Shown here piece after piece: positions 5,162 to 36,126 of a stretch of DNA of 64,000 nucleotides. Numbering within the stretch: position 1 is the stretch's first letter; the number at the start of each line of letters is the position of its first letter. The position numbers and the translations under genes were made by a program. Source of the DNA: an uncultured Halieaceae bacterium (GTDB taxonomy: Bacteria > Pseudomonadota > Gammaproteobacteria > Pseudomonadales > Halieaceae). Below the pieces are notes generated by a model. It was given only the letters and a program-made list of their open reading frames with translations, made no database searches and was not told where the DNA came from. The stretch covers positions 62,001-126,000 of the forward strand of contig CALJGI010000009.1 in assembly GCA_938074045.1 (NCBI GenBank), given 5' to 3'.

Positions 5162-5398
5162 AGTGATCGGCAGAGCGCCAGGTTTCCTTATGACAAGAGT
5201 AATTAGATTGCATTGGAGTCGCCTCCAGCAGTATTGGCTAATAGTTACACAATTGAGCTGGTGATGCTTCCTGATTCGCACGTAGTACGTTCACCGCGTA
5301 CGCAAATCAATTTGTCTATCCAAACACAATAACTCTTCGCCAGCTTCTATATACTGCCGGCAGGGCAAAGCCTCCACAAACAAGCAAGTGAGCACTAC

Positions 5399-6244
5399 AT
5401 GATCGGCGTTGGCGAACCACACAATTTGAACGTAGCAAGCATCAGTGACTCTGGTGCGTATCTGGATGCAAAAAACCTGGGCCAGGTGTTGCTACCCAAC
5501 CGGCATAAGCCCGACAACATCTCTGTGGGAGATCGAGTGACAGCCTTTCTCTACTATGACAGTGAGGATCGGCTGATCGCTACCACCCAACAGGCAAAAG
5601 CCAAAGTGGGTGAATACGCCTATTTGCAGGTCACTGACGTCAACGACTTCGGCGCGTTTCTGAACTGGGGGCTCGACAAGGATGTGCTGGTACCCTTCTC
5701 CGAGCAGCACCTGCCGATGCAGGTGAAACACTCCTATCTGGTTTACCTCTATATCAACCACGCGGATGGTCGGATAGTCGCTTCTTCAAAAATTGATCGC
5801 TTTGTAGAAGATGATCCCGATCACAGCTTTCTGCCCAGGCAGGCTGTTAACTTGATCATCGCCAACAGTACGGATCTCGGTTACAAGGCCATCATTGATC
5901 ACAGCCACTGGGGTGTCTTGTACAAAGACGAGGTATTTCAAAGGCTTAGTTTTGGCCAGTCGATCAAGGGCTATATCAAGAACGTGCGACCGGATGGGAA
6001 AATTGATTTAACGCTGCACGGAGGACAGGAAACACGAGACCAATACAGCGAGGCTATTCTGAATCACCTGCGACTACAGGGTGGGTATGCGGCGGTGCAT
6101 GATAAATCTCCGCCGGAATTGATATCACGCCTGTTTGGCATGAGTAAAAAGTCCTTCAAGAAGACGATAGGCGGACTTTACAAGTCGCGGTTGATTACCA
6201 TTGAAGAGGGTGGCATTCGGCTCAACTCTCAGGAGGAAGGATGA
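5399..6244 (+). CDS. cvfB: CvfB-family S1 RNA-binding protein
   Basis: 281 residues with the CvfB/YitL arrangement: three S1-type OB folds (about 1-65, 66-130, 140-205; see KVGEYAYLQVTDVNDFGAFLNWGL and GQSIKGYIKNVRPDGKIDLTL) followed by a C-terminal winged helix (SPPELISRLFGMSKKSFKKTIGGLYKSRLI). The family binds RNA and affects expression of virulence and other genes in firmicutes; its role in gammaproteobacteria is less clear. Cytoplasmic. The start ATG at 5399 has a weak GTGAG upstream. The gene stands alone, 81 bases before the PLP decarboxylase. Confidence 0.92.
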   Translation: MIGVGEPHNLNVASISDSGAYLDAKNLGQVLLPNRHKPDNISVGDRVTAFLYYDSEDRLIATTQQAKAKVGEYAYLQVTDVNDFGAFLNWGLDKDVLVPFSEQHLPMQVKHSYLVYLYINHADGRIVASSKIDRFVEDDPDHSFLPRQAVNLIIANSTDLGYKAIIDHSHWGVLYKDEVFQRLSFGQSIKGYIKNVRPDGKIDLTLHGGQETRDQYSEAILNHLRLQGGYAAVHDKSPPELISRLFGMSKKSFKKTIGGLYKSRLITIEEGGIRLNSQEEG

Positions 6245-6325
6245 AGGCTTAACTCGATGGCTCCACTGCCTTCCATTCGTTACACTGTCAACCACCCCAT
6301 CTCCCCACAATGACACTGGAAGTCT

Positions 6326-7792
6326 ATGTCAGAGCAAAGACTGGCCGCGCTGGAAAAGCTCGTTCTTCCCCTTGAAGTCGGCCCCCAGACAACCAGCGAC
6401 CTCTCCATTCGACAACAGGTTTGTGATTACACCGACGACTACCTGGAACGCGTAAAGACGGCGCCCGCCTTTGTGCCTGTAGCACCGGATGACATAGTCC
6501 CCGCCGATTTTTCGGTGACGGAAACACCCTCAGAACTGCCGCAGTTATTATCGCTTCTCGATAAACAAATCGACCGCAAGGCGGTGACAGTCGGACAGAA
6601 CTATCTTGCATTCATTCCCGGCAGTTCTACCCAGGCCTCCGCTCTGGGCGACTATATTGCAGCCATCACCAACAGTTATACCGGTGTCTCCTTTGCTGCA
6701 CCGGGTGGCGCGGCATTGGAACGCGAACTTCTGTCCTGGATGGCCAGCTTTATCGGCTACGCCAACGACAGCTTTGGCGGCGACCTCACCTCGGGTGGAA
6801 GCGTCGCCAATCTGTCCGCCATTGTCACTGCACGCAAAGCGCATCGATTAAAGTCCCGTGACTATGATCGCTGCACTGTTTATTTAAGCGACCAAACCCA
6901 CCACTCTATCGACAAGGCCCTGCGTATCGCCGGTATGGAAGAGTGTGTGATACGTCGCATCGGCGTGGACACTCACTACCGGATGGATGTTGGCGAGCTG
7001 AAGGCAGTCATAGCGACTGACCAAAAAGCCGGGTTGATCCCCTGGCTGGTAGTAGCCAGTGCTGGCACTACTGATATGGGTGTTGTCGACCCACTGAATA
7101 ATATTGCCGGGATTGCGACCAGCGAAAATCTGTGGTTTCACGTTGATGCGGCTTACGGTGGCGCCTTTGCACTGTGTGAAGAAGGCAAGCGCAAGCTGGA
7201 TGGCATCGAAAAATCAGACTCTGTCACACTGGACGCACACAAGGGTTTGTTTGTGCCTTTTGGAAGTGGCGCCGTATTGGTGAAGGAGCGCCGTCATTTA
7301 CTGGATGCTCAGCACTACAGTGCGGCCTATATGCAGGATACCGTGTCTCTCACATCCCTGGATCAAATTTCTCAGGCTGAAATGTCCATCGAGCTTTCCA
7401 GACCGTTCCGGGGATTACGTTTGTGGTTACCCCTTCGATTGGCTGGGGTCGGCGCTTACCGGGCGGCACTGGAAGAAAAACTGTTGCTGGCACAATATTT
7501 CTACAAGCGGCTAAACAACATCGATGGTTTTGAGACCGGACCGGCTCCAGACCTATCCATCGTTACCTTCAGATACAATCCCCCTGCTGGAAATAAAGAT
7601 GAGTTCAACACCAGATTGCTGTCCCTTATCCAGGAGGACGGGCGGGTGTTCCTGTCCTCCACCATCATCGCAGGGGAATTCACCATTCGCATGGCGGCGT
7701 TGAATATCTCTACCCACAAAGCAACCATGGACCTCGCGCTGAACATACTGCAAGAAAAAGTGGCGTCCTTACTTGGTGAGACATCACGTTAA
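6326..7792 (+). CDS. Pyridoxal-phosphate amino acid decarboxylase (group II)
   Basis: 488 residues, the usual length for the glutamate/aromatic/tyrosine decarboxylase family. It should remove the alpha-carboxylate of an amino acid using PLP. Lys306 in LDAHKGLFVPFG is the Schiff-base lysine, Asp274 in FHVDAAYGGA binds the pyridine nitrogen, and the THHS pair (His192/193) gives the ring-stacking residue. TSGGSVANL is the phosphate-binding stretch. The substrate (aromatic amino acid, aspartate or glutamate) cannot be fixed from sequence alone. GGAA lies just upstream of the ATG at 6326. No pathway partner adjoins it. Confidence 0.9.
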   Translation: MSEQRLAALEKLVLPLEVGPQTTSDLSIRQQVCDYTDDYLERVKTAPAFVPVAPDDIVPADFSVTETPSELPQLLSLLDKQIDRKAVTVGQNYLAFIPGSSTQASALGDYIAAITNSYTGVSFAAPGGAALERELLSWMASFIGYANDSFGGDLTSGGSVANLSAIVTARKAHRLKSRDYDRCTVYLSDQTHHSIDKALRIAGMEECVIRRIGVDTHYRMDVGELKAVIATDQKAGLIPWLVVASAGTTDMGVVDPLNNIAGIATSENLWFHVDAAYGGAFALCEEGKRKLDGIEKSDSVTLDAHKGLFVPFGSGAVLVKERRHLLDAQHYSAAYMQDTVSLTSLDQISQAEMSIELSRPFRGLRLWLPLRLAGVGAYRAALEEKLLLAQYFYKRLNNIDGFETGPAPDLSIVTFRYNPPAGNKDEFNTRLLSLIQEDGRVFLSSTIIAGEFTIRMAALNISTHKATMDLALNILQEKVASLLGETSR

Positions 7793-29057: not shown

Positions 29058-29815
29058 ATGAAAGCGCCATCAATGGCCGATAACGCCCAGTCTGATTTAA
29101 TCGGACAAACAACACCCGTGGTCGACTCTGCACCCGGCTTTGAAGCACTGCTGGAAATCTTCTCTCGATTCAACGACTTCTCGCCTCTTCTGCGACTGAC
29201 AATTGCCGGCGGCGTGATTGCAGGCTCTCTACTGCTTATGTTGCTGCTTCGCCACTTGATCGGGCGACGCATCCGACATTTGGACGCGATTCCCGAAGAG
29301 AGCTTTCGCCCATTGCGCTGGCAATCGCAGGACCTGCTCTCCACCGTCGAGATGAAAAACTTGTGGCTGGGTTTCTGGCGTGCCGTGGGATGGTTGGTAT
29401 CTTTGATGTGCGGTGTAGGTGCGGTGTAGGTGCACTGTTTGGCCTGCTTGTCAGTAACAACGTAAACGTGAGTCTGGCGATGCAGTTAATCGCTACAATC
29501 TTCTCTATCTTGCACTACTTGTGGACAGGTTTTGTAGGGTATCTACCGAGTCTGCTTACTATTGTGGTCATCGTGCTGGTTGGACGATTTATTTTAAAAC
29601 TCGTGCCAGCCATTTTTCACAGCATCAAAAGCCGGAGGATCTTTCCCTAACTGCCCGGCCACAGCTCCCCCCCCCCTTTCAGGGCATTTCAATTTCGTGG
29701 GGGTGTTGGTATCCCTGGGATCAACCACAGCGATAGCCAACATCATTGCTGGCATCGTTCTCACTTACACACGAGCCTTTCAGGTGGGCGATCAGGTAGC
29801 GGTCAGCAATTTCCT
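29058..29815 (+). pseudogene. Decayed MscS-type mechanosensitive channel
   Basis: Several frames together spell a small-conductance mechanosensitive channel: membrane helices in the first frame (LLRLTIAGGVIAGSLLLMLLL, up to 29429), more in a second (LTIVVIVLVGRFILKLVPAIF), and the pore/beta-domain entrance in a third (SLGSTTAIANIIAGIVLTYTRAF, about 29715-29790). The first break is an 11-base tandem duplication at 29408-29429; removing one copy restores MCGVGALFGLL. A run of ten C (29667-29676) lies near a missing internal segment and a further frame change. The 3-prime end is cut off at the neighbouring M20 gene. It cannot make a working channel. Confidence 0.8.
29408..29429. repeat. 11-base tandem duplication inside the MscS gene
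   Basis: GTGCGGTGTAG occurs twice without a gap (29408-29418 and 29419-29429). Deleting one copy restores the channel reading frame through this point, so the duplication is an inactivating mutation, probably from replication slippage. Confidence 0.85.
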
Positions 29816-29820
29816 GTTTG

Positions 29821-31134
29821 CTAGCGGGCCATTAACTCCATCAAGGCGACTACCGTAGATTCAACCCCTCTGGTTACAGCAGGCTGCGGTGAAATCTTAA
29901 ACAATGGCGAGTGATGACTGGGTACCGGAGCACCGCCGGCTGCTTCGACATCAAACGCCTCCTGGGGGGTGCCGCCAATAGACCAGTAAACACTGCGGAT
30001 ATCGGGGTCAACGGAAAAGAACGGAAAGTCCTCTGCCCCCATGCCCTTGGTAGGAATATCCACTACCACCTTGTCACCGATCTCCTTTCCCCATGCCTGT
30101 TTCAGGCGCCTGGCAAGGGTTGGATCGTTAATGGTGGGCGGTACGCTTTCCTCGGAAACAATCACCTCGGGCAATTTATCTTCGGGCAGGCCAGCGACGC
30201 GCCCCATATTCTCTGCAATGCGTTTGATGCCAGTCAGCAGCAGGTCTCGCGTTTGATTGCTGGTGTTCCTGACGGTTAACTGCAAATGTGCACGATCGGA
30301 AATAATATTGTGCTTGGTGCCGGCGTGGAAGGACCCCACTGTAACCACACCCGGATCACGCGGTGACAATTCACGTGCGACCAGGGTTTGCAGCGCTAAC
30401 ACAATCTGGCTGCCCAGCACGATGGGGTCCTTGCCCCGGTGTGGGTGAGCGCCATGGCTGCCTACGCCATGAATAATAATATCCACGGTATCTGCCCCGG
30501 CGTAGGGGCTGCCCTCGGAAACATTAATCAGGCCTGCGACATCATTGCCCTGCACGTGAAAGGCCAGCGCATAATCCGGCGTTCCAAACCGCCCCCAGAT
30601 ATCGTCTTCCTTCATCGCCTTGGCGCCAATGACACGCTCCTCCGCGGGTTGAACAACCAGCATCAAAGTTCCCTTCCACGCGTCTTTGTTCGCCGACATA
30701 TGGCGGGCAGTGCCTACCAGGCTGGTGATATGCACATCGTGACCACAGGCGTGCATGACATATACCGTATTGCCGGTTATCGGGTCGGTTTGTTGCGCTC
30801 TCGATGCATTCTCAAGCCCTGACTTCTCCTCCACCGGCAGACCATCCATATCGGCTCGCATCATCACCAGGGGGCCATCACCGTTTTTCATGATGGCGAC
30901 TACGCCGGTACCACCAACCGCTTCAGTGACGTCAAAGCCCGCAGACCTCAACTCCTTTGCCATCCGCGCCGCGGTTTTGGTTTCAACGGTAGAGAGTTCG
31001 GGGTTGCGGTGAAAATGGTCAAACAGACCGGCAAGATAGCTGTCGTAATCCTTTTGAATAGCATCACTGAGCCCACCTCCCAGTGCGGAAGCAGAAAAGA
31101 GAACGGCGAATATACTCGAAGCAATTTTTAACAT
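29821..31134 (-). CDS. Exported M20 amidohydrolase (IAA-amino acid hydrolase type)
   Basis: 437 residues with a cleavable signal peptide (MLKIASSIFAVLFSASALGGG). Active-site motifs of the M20D amidohydrolases are present: MMRADMDGLPVEE, MHACGHDVHITSLVG (zinc ligands), VQPAEERVIGAKAM with catalytic Glu, and GVGSHGAHPHRGKDP in the lid domain. It should remove N-acyl groups or hydrolyse amino-acid conjugates in the periplasm. All usual metal ligands appear intact, unlike the other M20 protein at 27258-28862. It lies 87 bases after the cyclase pair on the same strand and could be co-transcribed, though a link to signalling is not evident. Confidence 0.92.
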   Translation of the reverse strand: MLKIASSIFAVLFSASALGGGLSDAIQKDYDSYLAGLFDHFHRNPELSTVETKTAARMAKELRSAGFDVTEAVGGTGVVAIMKNGDGPLVMMRADMDGLPVEEKSGLENASRAQQTDPITGNTVYVMHACGHDVHITSLVGTARHMSANKDAWKGTLMLVVQPAEERVIGAKAMKEDDIWGRFGTPDYALAFHVQGNDVAGLINVSEGSPYAGADTVDIIIHGVGSHGAHPHRGKDPIVLGSQIVLALQTLVARELSPRDPGVVTVGSFHAGTKHNIISDRAHLQLTVRNTSNQTRDLLLTGIKRIAENMGRVAGLPEDKLPEVIVSEESVPPTINDPTLARRLKQAWGKEIGDKVVVDIPTKGMGAEDFPFFSVDPDIRSVYWSIGGTPQEAFDVEAAGGAPVPSHHSPLFKISPQPAVTRGVESTVVALMELMAR

Positions 31135-31221: not shown

Positions 31222-32981
31222 CTACTTCTTTGTCAACTCCCACACACCATCCCAGTTATCTCCCAGATTGACGTTTGACAGAGAATCGAGACGCTCGATC
31301 AAGGACCGTGCCGGCCCATCCTTTGCATCCAATGCGAGACATTCCTCAAAACGCGCCCTGGCAAGTTCCCAGTCCTGATTGCGATAATGCAGAAGTCCAT
31401 CCTCATATATGTCGCGCAGTTTCAACGTCGGCGCAGCAGTTTCACCCCGGATGCCCAAGAGTTCGTATATCCGCACTGGCTCTTCCTTGCCCACTACCTG
31501 AATCATATCAATCTCTCGTGTTTCCATTTCGTCGGCGATCATTGAGCGCGTCTCTTCGACAATGAGACAACACACCCCGTAAATCTTACACGCCCCCTTT
31601 AATCTGGACGCGATGTTCACTGTGTCACCCAGAACGGCATAGGACATTGATTGCTGCGAACCCATGTTACCGACCACCACCGGGCCGGTGGAGACACCCA
31701 CATAAATATTCAACGATGAAACATCTACCGCTTCTTCGAAATCGCTTTGCAGACGCTTATGTAAGTCATCGACTGTTCGTAATTGCTCCAGCACAGCCTT
31801 GCAAGCCATTGTGGCGTGGGCTGATTCAGCGTTAAAGGGCGGCCCCCAAAATGACATGACCATTGAATCAATATACTTATCGATAACACCCTTATGCTTC
31901 GTGACCGGGGTTGATAGCGCTGTCAGGCAATCGTTAATCAGACGCACCAGGTCAACTGGGGCCAGCGCATCAACTTGCAGCGAGTGGAAATCGAATTCCG
32001 TAAAGACCACTGTCATTTCTTCTTTGGCACCACCGGTTTCCAGTGAATCATCACCATCCATCAAATTTTCGACGACCCTGGGGTCAACGTATTTACCAAA
32101 GGTGCTTTTGATTTTATCCGTTAAGATGAGCTCGTCCACCATCCCGCCGAAGGACTCTGCCAATTCACCAATTTCATCATTGGAAGTTACCTCGACAGCA
32201 ACATCAAGGTCTCCCCCACCAACCCGACGCATGTCCTCCATCAATTTGTGCATCGGCCGGACCAGCCCAAGGGTCAAGACAAAGGAATACAAAAGGCCCA
32301 CTACGACAGCAAGGCCAGTCACTATGGAGTTAACTCGCAGCAGCGTCTGTTGCTGTGCTCGGGTAGCCGCCATAGCAGAACGATTGATCTCTTGAAAAAC
32401 AGTCCGAATTGAGTGGATCTCATTATCAAATAGTGACTCGATCTCACGCAGCCGAACACGCTGCTGCGTCGCCAAGAGCGTGTCTCCGTTATCAAGGGCG
32501 GAAACAAGCTCATGACTAATACTCGACACTGCCCAAACTGACTACTCAGGTCAGCGAGCCGAGGTTGCAATCGCGTGAACTGCTGCCGCCGTGAATCGTC
32601 TTCCAACTCGTCAATCGCATCGTCAGTTAACAGCGAAGCGCTAGTCAGACTCTCGCGACCGGTTCGCCTGATCGTTTCAAAAGTAATGAGCTCTTTATCG
32701 ATGGCATCCCTATTGAGAATACGGTCTGCATATAGCCGACCTATTCGTTCGATGTGAACTTCCTGATTCAGGCTCTGTAGTCGCACATCGGTAATCTGAT
32801 TGGAGATTGGAATGAGGTAATCGTTTAATTGAGAAACCTGCGCCTTGATATCATGCAATCTTGCAGAACTGATATAGGCAACGAAGATCAACAGCAACAG
32901 TAAACTCGTGGCGATTGAAAATATCTTTACACCCAGAGATACTCTGAGTCCGGCTTGTGGCCTGGCACGATCTAACGTCAT
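31222..32981 (-). CDS. Class III cyclase homologue, C2-like half (metal Asp lost); frameshifted
   Basis: Two frames make one membrane cyclase of about 586 residues. Start ATG 32981 has GGAG upstream and overlaps the previous gene as ATGA. Order: TM1, periplasmic helical sensor, TM2, HAMP (LVRPMHKLMEDMRRVGGGDLD), linker DKIKSTFGKYVDP, cyclase domain, TPR-like tail ending NWDGVWEL. A one-base loss near 32535 splits the sensor; a GTG at 32529 could restart translation in the second frame. Counting from that GTG, metal-binding Asp positions are Glu178 (VVFTEFDF) and Ser222 (KYIDSMV), while transition-state Asn305 and Arg309 (GDTVNIASR) and Lys218 remain. This matches mammalian C2 halves. Probably inactive alone. 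Confidence 0.82.
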
Positions 32982-35177
32982 AGCCACGCTCCGTCCCAGT
33001 CAGATTCCGGCGGCTTCGCGCGCAACACTTGCACTCTATGCAAGAGTACCCTGCTGGGCCCGTCCTCCGGACAAAGCTCTAGACAGGTATTGAAAGACTG
33101 CTCAGCATCGCTCCAGGACTGTTCCCAATACTGCGCCATACCCTGCTCAAAAACATCACGTAACTCTGCTTGATCCGCCGGCAGCTCGCCCTTGATGCTA
33201 AGCAGCTCAAATACCGACATCAACTGATCAGCCCCATTGACTCGGATGCGGTCGACGAGACGTGTTTCAATACGGTTACCGGCCAACTCTCGGGTTGATT
33301 CCGAAATAAGAATACGTGTACCGAAAACCTTGTTCATCCCCTCTAAGGTCTCCGCCAAGGTCGTCGTGTCGCCATAGACAGTGAAGGATCGAAAGTCCTC
33401 TGAGCCAATGTCACCGGCAAGAACATTCCCCGTTGCAATACCAATTCTGATATTCAGTGGAGGCAGGTTTTTACGAATACCAAGTAAATCGGGCAGACGT
33501 CGGCGCATGATCTCCAGTTGTCTGAACTGCTCAAGGGCGGCTCTACAGGCCAGTGTCGCATGATCCTTTTCACCGGAAAAAGGAGGCCCCCAGAATGCCA
33601 CAACCGCATCACCGATAAACTTATCGATAACACCATCCAACTCCAGAATGGGTTCTGACGACAGCGTCAGGTACTCGTTGACGAGAGTTACCAGTCCGCC
33701 AGGTGTCAGGAATTCACTGATACCGCTGAATTTCTCGATATCAGAGAAAAGCACTGTCATGTCTTTCCGCTCAACCCGCTCGCGCGAAGCAGCGCCGGAC
33801 CGAAGCATCCTATCCACTATGCGCGGATCGACAAAATGCCCGAAAGTGGCTCTGATCCTGTCCTTTTCCTGAATTCCCGCCACCATCGAATTAAAGTATT
33901 CGCTGAGTTTGCCGACCTCGTCTGTCGTTGCTATGGGAACATTAACGTCCAGGTTACCCCGCTTTACTTCAGTGGTCGCAGACAGCAGCCTATTCAGTGG
34001 TTTCATCAGTCCGCTGGTTACAAACCAGGCAATCAGTAGCCCGGTGGATATGGCAACGATGACGACTGCCCAACTGATTCGAATAGTGCCCTGTTCCTCT
34101 AGCTCAATCTTTGCGACGGAGCTTTGTACCAGTAATGCGATCAGCGAGAATGCCGCATCCAAATCTCGATTTAACTCAGTTTGTTCCTTGGCCAGGTCGT
34201 CCTGTAACAGTTCAGCCTCAGCTTTGGTTTCCTCATGCAGCATCTGGATAATGGCAAGCGCCCGATCGAACAAGTCAGCGTGGTCTTTTTCTACGGCCGA
34301 CAGCTCGGACTTTATTGGAAGAAAATCTACCGCACTCAGTTGATTTGCCAGCGTATCCAGTGAGTTGTAAGAATTAGTGATGGCGGGCAGTTGACCATTC
34401 GCGTCATGTTGCACGGAGGTTTGTTCTTTTAACGGAGAGTTTCCAGCACCTTCAGTGCCCGGGCCGTGACTGTTGTCCGACGACTCGAACCTCGAAACGT
34501 CTCCAGCTTTCTCAGGAATATGGTGTTGTAGCGTTTGCTCAACAGTGATCAAGCTCAATCGCACTGGCGCAACATCCGCAAGGTCGTGCACTTCCTCCAC
34601 ATCGATTACACTCTGATTAGACTGTGATATCGACTGCGACAATCGCTTCTGCGCCGCGTCCAACGCGTCCTGTAGTTCCCGAGTACGCTGCTTGGTGTCC
34701 TTTCTCACATAGCGAATGATTTTTTTTCGCCTGTGAATCAATATCGATGTGTTCCTTCCTGATATCACCTAGACGGGTCTTCACTTCGGATAACTCGGCG
34801 ATTTCGGCTTTGCTATCTACGCGACCAATTGCGCTGTCTGAACTTTGGATAGCGGCGGCGATATCCTCGGCTATCAGCGTCGTGTAGCCCTCAAATTCAC
34901 GCAGTTCATGCGCGAGCACATCAAGATCCAGCGGTGCAACCTCGTAGATACTCCAGATTCGTTCAAGGTGAACATGCTGGGCAAGAATGCTGATGCTGAT
35001 ATTGGCGACTCGATCTCGCAGAGGAGCAAGATAGTCGGCAATGTCCTCCATTTCGCCGGACACCCGCGTGACCCGATCATAGGTGAAAAGGCTCAACCCG
35101 ATGAGTAAGGCCAACATGCTCAACGAAAGCGCAAATATTTTCGCGGCAATCGGGACCCTAAATTGCATCGTTCTCAT
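32978..35177 (-). CDS. Class III cyclase homologue, C1-like half (Asn/Arg lost); frameshifted
   Basis: About 732 residues across two frames. Start ATG 35177 follows GAGG. Order: TM1, long periplasmic helical sensor with a Ser/Gly-rich insert, TM2 (ISWAVVIVAISTGLLIAWFV), HAMP, linker DRIRATFGHFVDP, cyclase domain, TPR-like tail ending SDWDGAWL. An A8 run (T8 at 34720-34727) has one base too many and separates the frames. Counting from the downstream frame start at 34768, metal-binding Asp343 (FSDIEKF) and Asp387 (IGDAVV) are intact and 44 residues apart, but the Asn and Arg positions are Thr470 and Thr474 (GDTTTLAET). This matches mammalian C1 halves and complements the next gene. Confidence 0.82.
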
Positions 35178-35229: not shown

Positions 35230-36126
35230 CTATCTGTCAGAACAAATCCAGCTGGAATTTGCCCTAGTCAACACTTCCGCTGTGTTGATAATTTCCTCTC
35301 TAAACGCCAACAATCCGTTTTCCAATATCGCTCTGACGACATGAATTTTCATCGCCTCTGAACCGAAATTGTTGTAGTACAAAAACATATTTGTGTCGTT
35401 GAGTGTATTGCAACTTGAAAGCGAACCATTCTTGTACTGAGTGAAGGTATGCTTGTGGTACAAATCCGTCGATCTCATTATCGACAACTGATGAGTATGT
35501 CCGCAAAAAGCATGCTCGATATTGTTCTCGCGAATAAACTCAACCACAAGCCGGGAATTGAATAGGGGATCTGAGTCCGTATCCAGAATAGAGTGATGAT
35601 TCAGAAGAATAATTCTGTCGAAGTTCGCCCGTGCAATTAAGTGCGAAAGTGTCCTTAGCATTTCCGGGTCTACAAAGCCGTTGTCCTCATAAAGTGAATT
35701 TGAGTCAAGACATACCAATAGAAAAGACTCTCCATCTATCGAGATGTTCTTCAGAAAGTTGATGTCGGTAAAGGTGTCCTTGATGCCACTTACGTTCTCG
35801 TCCAGGAAAATATCCTTCTTCCGACAGTTGTCACGGTTCAGTGGACGGATAACCTCCACGTCTTCGATGTAATGCCGAAAATAGTCCGCGCTGCGCATAT
35901 TGCGTTTGTCATGATTTCCAGGGATGGAGACAACATGCGGACAATCAATTGCCCTCAAGAAGCTTCCGGCCGCCTCAAACTCGATTTCAAGCGCATCCGT
36001 CGTGTTGTCACCCGTATTTATGACAATATCGGCCGGATAGCTGTTCAACTTATCCAACAGCAGCTCATTCCGCCCCAACCAGTGGCGAGGGCCAAAGTGC
36101 ATATCTGAAATGTGTAGCAGGTTCAT
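35230..36126 (-). CDS. Calcineurin-like phosphodiesterase, CpdA type
   Basis: 298 residues with all class III cyclic-nucleotide phosphodiesterase/metallophosphoesterase motifs: ISDMHFG (Asp8, His10), INTGDNTTD (Asp40), SIPGNHDK (Asn71, His72), ILLNHHS and FCGHTHQ. These bind two metals and are shared with CpdA (cAMP phosphodiesterase). No signal peptide, so it is cytoplasmic. It is the first gene of the minus-strand unit, 52 bases before the C1-like cyclase, which strongly suggests that it degrades the nucleotide made by the cyclase pair. Another substrate is possible, because this superfamily is broad. Its base composition looks more AT-rich than its neighbours. Confidence 0.87.
   Translation of the reverse strand: MNLLHISDMHFGPRHWLGRNELLLDKLNSYPADIVINTGDNTTDALEIEFEAAGSFLRAIDCPHVVSIPGNHDKRNMRSADYFRHYIEDVEVIRPLNRDNCRKKDIFLDENVSGIKDTFTDINFLKNISIDGESFLLVCLDSNSLYEDNGFVDPEMLRTLSHLIARANFDRIILLNHHSILDTDSDPLFNSRLVVEFIRENNIEHAFCGHTHQLSIMRSTDLYHKHTFTQYKNGSLSSCNTLNDTNMFLYYNNFGSEAMKIHVVRAILENGLLAFREEIINTAEVLTRANSSWICSDR

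Follow-up and report, generated by a model that had tools for sequence, protein, structure and literature searches.

Two class III nucleotidyl cyclase genes lie side by side on the minus strand of a 64,000-nucleotide stretch of DNA from an uncultured Halieaceae bacterium (hereafter, the window). The first, of a C1 type (gene 1), occupies 32978..35177 and the second, of a C2 type (gene 2), 31222..32981; a one-base frameshift interrupts the reading frame of each. The ATG of gene 2 overlaps the stop of gene 1 in the four bases ATGA (32981-32978), an overlap also present in the related intact pair L046, from Desulfococcaceae HSG8. The two proteins are 37% identical over the part that can be aligned and share the same domain order: a transmembrane helix, a periplasmic helical sensor, a second transmembrane helix, a HAMP domain, a class III catalytic domain, and a TPR-like tail that ends in a WDG motif. 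The catalytic domains (33200..33874 in gene 1, together with the preceding signalling helix, and 31456..32127 in gene 2; both minus strand) score 58.7 and 47.0 bits against PF00211, for which the curated cut-off is 21.9, and both are thus class III nucleotidyl cyclases; comparison with NCBIfam gave weak matches below cut-off only. The catalytic domain of gene 2 is predicted to adopt the class III fold: its AlphaFold2 model has a mean pLDDT of 84.7, and the closest solved fold is that of CyaB of P. aeruginosa (3r5g; Z 26.2, 186 residues, 2.2 A). The sensor of gene 1 (34000-34720, minus strand) contains ~110 extra residues, among which one of the sensor hairpins is apparently repeated.

Upstream of the pair and on the same strand is a gene for a calcineurin-like phosphoesterase (35230..36126), a possible phosphodiesterase that could degrade the cyclic nucleotide. 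It is not a regular neighbour of other pairs, and no conserved gene neighbours of the pair are apparent among the listed ORFs. On the plus strand at 29058-29840 lies the remnant of an MscS-like mechanosensitive-channel gene. It lacks its end and is disrupted by a stop-containing short tandem duplication, a run of C and changes of frame.

The mechanism of class III cyclases is established: a metal-binding pair of Asp residues together with Lys, Asn and Arg is needed for one full site of the dimer. The two window genes divide these residues between them. Gene 1 keeps both metal-binding Asp (in FSDIEK, 33740-33742, and FIGDAV, 33608-33610), which are 44 residues apart, as well as Lys (33620-33622), and has Thr in place of both the transition-state Asn (33359-33361) and the transition-state Arg (33347-33349). 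In gene 2 the Asp positions, also 44 residues apart, hold Glu (31996-31998) and Ser (31864-31866), and Lys (31876-31878), Asn (31615-31617) and Arg (31603-31605) are retained (all minus strand). This reading bears out the initial annotation, which had identified the complementary substitutions in both genes from the sequence. Three features had escaped it: the base-specifying, base-contacting Thr of the family is Ala in gene 2 (31636-31638, minus strand), the sensor of gene 1 has its extra segment, and neither gene has a single open frame.

Each gene is split across two minus-strand ORFs, 35189-34617 and 34768-32978 for gene 1 and 32987-32322 and 32538-31222 for gene 2. The sequence, together with the relatives, places the frame switch of gene 1 in an A8 run (34720..34727) and that of gene 2 in the stretch TTTGGGCAGTG (32525..32541). 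In intact relatives the regions that correspond to the ORF fragments on either side of each frameshift are contiguous, so the simplest reading is that each gene gained or lost one base. The A8 run could also suggest programmed frameshifting, and this was rejected: the intact relatives are encoded in single frames, the two sites differ, and sequencing error or decay is a simpler explanation. Coding scores across 330 kb gave no informative estimate of frameshifts, as the candidates checked were either normal neighbouring genes that overlap or lacked a Pfam match by which to judge them.

Given both frameshifts and the Ala at the Thr position of gene 2, the window copy may be broken. It is quite possible, though not the reading we prefer, that the whole locus is decaying, so that the two genes are frameshifted pseudogenes and the Glu, Ser and Ala of gene 2 arose partly from decay; the badly broken channel gene ~2 kb further on would fit such a history. 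However, long open frames survive (596 and ~438 codons), the C-terminal regions are still ~52-54% identical to those of the intact L046 pair, and the end branches of the window proteins (0.71 and 0.78) are similar in length to those of L048, an intact pair (0.74 and 0.69). Moreover, the frameshift of gene 1 sits in a homopolymer, and homopolymers are common places for sequencing errors. The window pair may therefore be newly damaged, or merely mis-sequenced, in the sensor region. As the window copy is a poor representative, the case for the pair rests on intact pairs in its relatives.

Relatives were sought in 84,980 genomes, using an alignment of both proteins as the query and two peptide patterns that excluded the positions of the second Asp, the Asn and the Arg. 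The scan yielded 80 loci, 11 of them with a C2-type protein; the other 69, all unpaired relatives, are without exception catalytically complete, with Asp, Asp, Lys, Thr/Ser, Asn and Arg. Together with the window, 12 genomes thus contain both types, from Cyanobacteriota, Thermodesulfobacteriota, Nitrospirota and Spirochaetota besides the window's own lineage. A complete C1-type partner adjoins the C2 gene in eight of the 11 scan genomes. In two Symploca genomes C1 is on a contig (L176, L177) separate from that of C2, and in Spirulina it starts beside C2 and runs off the contig (L061); the copy at this contig end has Ala at the second Asp, and a fragment on another contig (L188) has the intact Asp. 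With the Symploca C1 genes unlinked and the Spirulina C1 continued elsewhere, there is no C2 without a C1 in any of the 12 genomes. The order of the genes is C2-C1 in cyanobacteria and C1-C2 in the others. The same pair with co-varying losses, which the initial annotation had proposed to look for in related genomes, therefore recurs in 11 more.

At strict cut-offs, no further pairs came to light among 140 genomes sampled from the window's family, 391 from its order and 274 from its class, nor among those sampled from Cyanobacteriota (386) and Thermodesulfobacteriota (345). This rarity suggests that the two genes have been transferred together as a unit. Plasmid-borne relatives amounted to nine matches, with identities of at most 37%. 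A different cyclase, with Glu and Gly at the base-specifying positions, occurs in many genomes of the window's family (L003, at G000:C25:193541-194185, L019, L023, L025, L029 and L031-L038). The same E-G pair is reported to occur in Cya2, a guanylyl cyclase of Synechocystis (PMC4215837); the family's protein may likewise be a guanylyl cyclase, one widely retained in bacteria.

The division of residues is held with little variation across the pairs. In C2 types the second Asp is lost in all 12 genomes (Thr in 11, Ser in the window) and Lys, Asn and Arg are always retained, with the first Asp present in seven and otherwise replaced by Gln, Glu or His. C1 types retain the second Asp in 12/12 (counting L188 for Spirulina) and the first in all 11 copies that cover the position. 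They have lost Arg without exception (to Thr, Glu, Tyr, His, Lys, Ile, Gln or Asp) and Asn in 11 of the 12, L046 being the one that retains it, and the base Lys has become Gln in eight. Neither the window genes nor any of their paired relatives combine Asp, Asp, Lys, Asn and Arg in one chain; in all 12 genomes the Asp pair belongs to one subunit and Lys, Asn and Arg to the other, each subunit being without the other's set. The initial annotation had named orthologues complete in both genes as evidence against its proposal; such relatives were sought and not found. Because the complementary split recurs in 11 other genomes while all the unpaired relatives are complete, it goes beyond chance.

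Not every loss weighs equally. Ma1120 of M. avium naturally has Ala at the Asn position and is nevertheless active (PMC4215837), so the loss of Asn alone is weak evidence; the loss of Arg from every C1 and of the second Asp from every C2 is the stronger. Ma1120 also shows that some class III cyclases function with unusual residues (PMC4215837), and three C1 proteins (L050, from an intact pair of Adonisia, L051 and L056) have Lys in place of Arg, which would suit an alternative that we consider unlikely, namely that C1 types are active homodimers tolerating the loss of Asn and Arg, with C2 types as dead regulators or nucleotide-binding partners. Such homodimers are hard to reconcile with the loss of Arg from all 12 C1 proteins and the change of the base Lys to Gln in eight of them, and a mere binding partner need not retain the other catalytic half, yet Lys, Asn and Arg are kept in every C2.

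Phylogeny and selection also bear on how the split came about. In maximum-likelihood trees of 62 proteins, among them eight C1 rows and 11 C2 rows, the C1 types and the C2 types each form one side of one branch, whether or not the catalytic columns are included; with these columns removed, the C1/C2 clades stand at 100/99 support and appear in 100% of 200 bootstrap trees. Cyanobacterial and other members split apart in both subtrees. The two clades sit among bacterial relatives of the homodimer type; they need not be each other's sisters, nor need they go back to one founding duplication. For both genes, dN/dS is 0.10-0.15 in three species pairs, indicating purifying selection. Drift after a tandem duplication can yield broken copies, and two cyclases that do not assemble might have dropped different residues by chance; but the same split is maintained across several phyla, dN/dS is low in both genes and C2 never occurs without C1, which makes this explanation highly improbable.

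Together, the two single-origin clades, the purifying selection on both genes, the profile matches described below and the split in 12/12 genomes support the initial proposal of an obligate heterodimer. We consider it very probable that each gene encodes one half of a membrane-bound class III nucleotidyl cyclase that works only as a heterodimer, and a bacterial lineage of such enzymes is strongly indicated by the sequences. Gene 1, in the C1 role, would supply the two metal-binding Asp, and gene 2, in the C2 role, the base-binding Lys, the Asn and Arg of the transition state, and a Lys on the phosphate side; in the relatives, Thr would join the base-binding Lys. A C1:C2 dimer would then have a single complete active site beside a degenerate pseudo-site, while C1:C1 and C2:C2 dimers would each be without an essential residue set. 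In the window, the full site of the C1:C2 dimer would carry Ala for Thr next to the base. The Lys/Thr combination suggests ATP as the nucleotide.

Each subunit would span the membrane with two helices around a periplasmic four-helix sensor and continue into HAMP, an arrangement in which an extracytoplasmic signal is proposed to pass to one asymmetric cyclase core; heterodimerisation, activity, nucleotide and signal are what we infer from the protein sequences. A set of periplasmic His and Glu residues (H63, E66, E68, H70, E91, H176, H180 and H182 in the numbering of L046 gene 2, encoded at 5377-7212, where the cluster covers residues 63-91 and 176-182) is conserved in the pair proteins and not consistently in unpaired relatives; in the window copies the motif is incomplete. 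Structure prediction for the full-length protein (pLDDT 87.2) shows the periplasmic region as four long helices; the His/Glu residues are in helices 1, 2 and 3, at most ~16 residues from the ends that point away from the membrane. At a guess, the cluster might be a site for a metal or a similar ligand. A fold search with the full-length model returned, among the matches listed, only cyclase domains and is uninformative on the sensor. A more speculative picture, offered tentatively, is that bacteria evolved an obligate C1/C2 membrane cyclase separately from animals, that the putative pseudo-site binds a regulatory ligand, that the two halves of the sensor respond, via the conserved His/Glu cluster, to a metal or some other signal in the periplasm, and that the two-gene unit has moved between phyla.

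In mammalian transmembrane adenylyl cyclases, C1 carries the metal-binding Asp pair and C2 carries Lys, Asn and Arg without the second Asp, giving one catalytic and one degenerate site. The bacterial pair splits the Asp pair from Lys, Asn and Arg in the same way as VC1:IIC2, and the likeness drawn in the initial annotation is reflected in profile comparisons with solved structures. The C1 profile has its best stretch within the C1 halves of AC8 (409-557) and AC5 (464-620), the C2 profile within the C2 halves of AC8 (984-1144) and AC5 (1069-1248). The C1 profile matches VC1 (1azs_A) at 1e-6 versus 7e-4 for IIC2, and it also matches sGC alpha and, in soluble AC, the first half; the C2 profile also matches IIC2 (1azs_B, 5.7e-9) and sGC beta. 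As the catalytic residues in common contribute to these matches, they point to the same division of roles rather than to common descent. Nor do the bacterial proteins belong to the mammalian type, as they come from two genes and each has a helical sensor flanked by two hydrophobic segments: the mammalian enzyme is one fused chain with two hexahelical membrane domains, whereas each bacterial subunit has a two-helix membrane sensor with HAMP, and the second base position is Asp in the mammalian enzymes and Thr in the bacterial pairs.

Soluble guanylyl cyclase alpha/beta resembles the pair in being an obligate heterodimer from separate genes, and it is there that the C1 profile finds the alpha and the C2 profile the beta subunit. 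It differs in being soluble and eukaryotic, with a haem-based NO sensor and GTP-specific residues. Closer at hand are the bacterial homodimeric HAMP class III cyclases, whose solved member CyaB (3r5g) has the same catalytic fold as the gene 2 domain. The nearest unpaired bacterial relatives are built like the pair, with a membrane sensor followed by HAMP, the cyclase domain and a tail, but with all residues in one chain (69/69) they would form two equal sites. The catalytic domains of the pair also match PycC models, as class III domains may do, and none of the listed ORFs adjacent to the pair looked like a Pyc effector.

The initial annotation knew of no described bacterial membrane pair of this kind, and the open-licence literature likewise yielded no description of a bacterial class III pair with split residues. 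According to a 2022 perspective, bacterial class III cyclases are monomers that homodimerise, and no bacterial form is known in which the dimer is fused; the same authors ask what advantage a linked dimer brings (PMC9552081). The bacterial pair would offer a simple two-gene system in which to test, in E. coli, the advantage of one working and one spare site in a dimer of two unlike subunits and, if our reading is true, a natural obligate heterodimer for engineered cyclases. A eukaryotic parallel exists in the RGC/NeoR rhodopsin-guanylyl cyclases of chytrid fungi, in which two membrane sensor-cyclases from separate genes form an obligate heterodimer (PMC8815786). However, RGC1 and RGC2 retain all known catalytic residues and their need for a partner has been ascribed to other domains (PMC8815786), whereas in the bacterial pair it is the catalytic residues themselves that are split.
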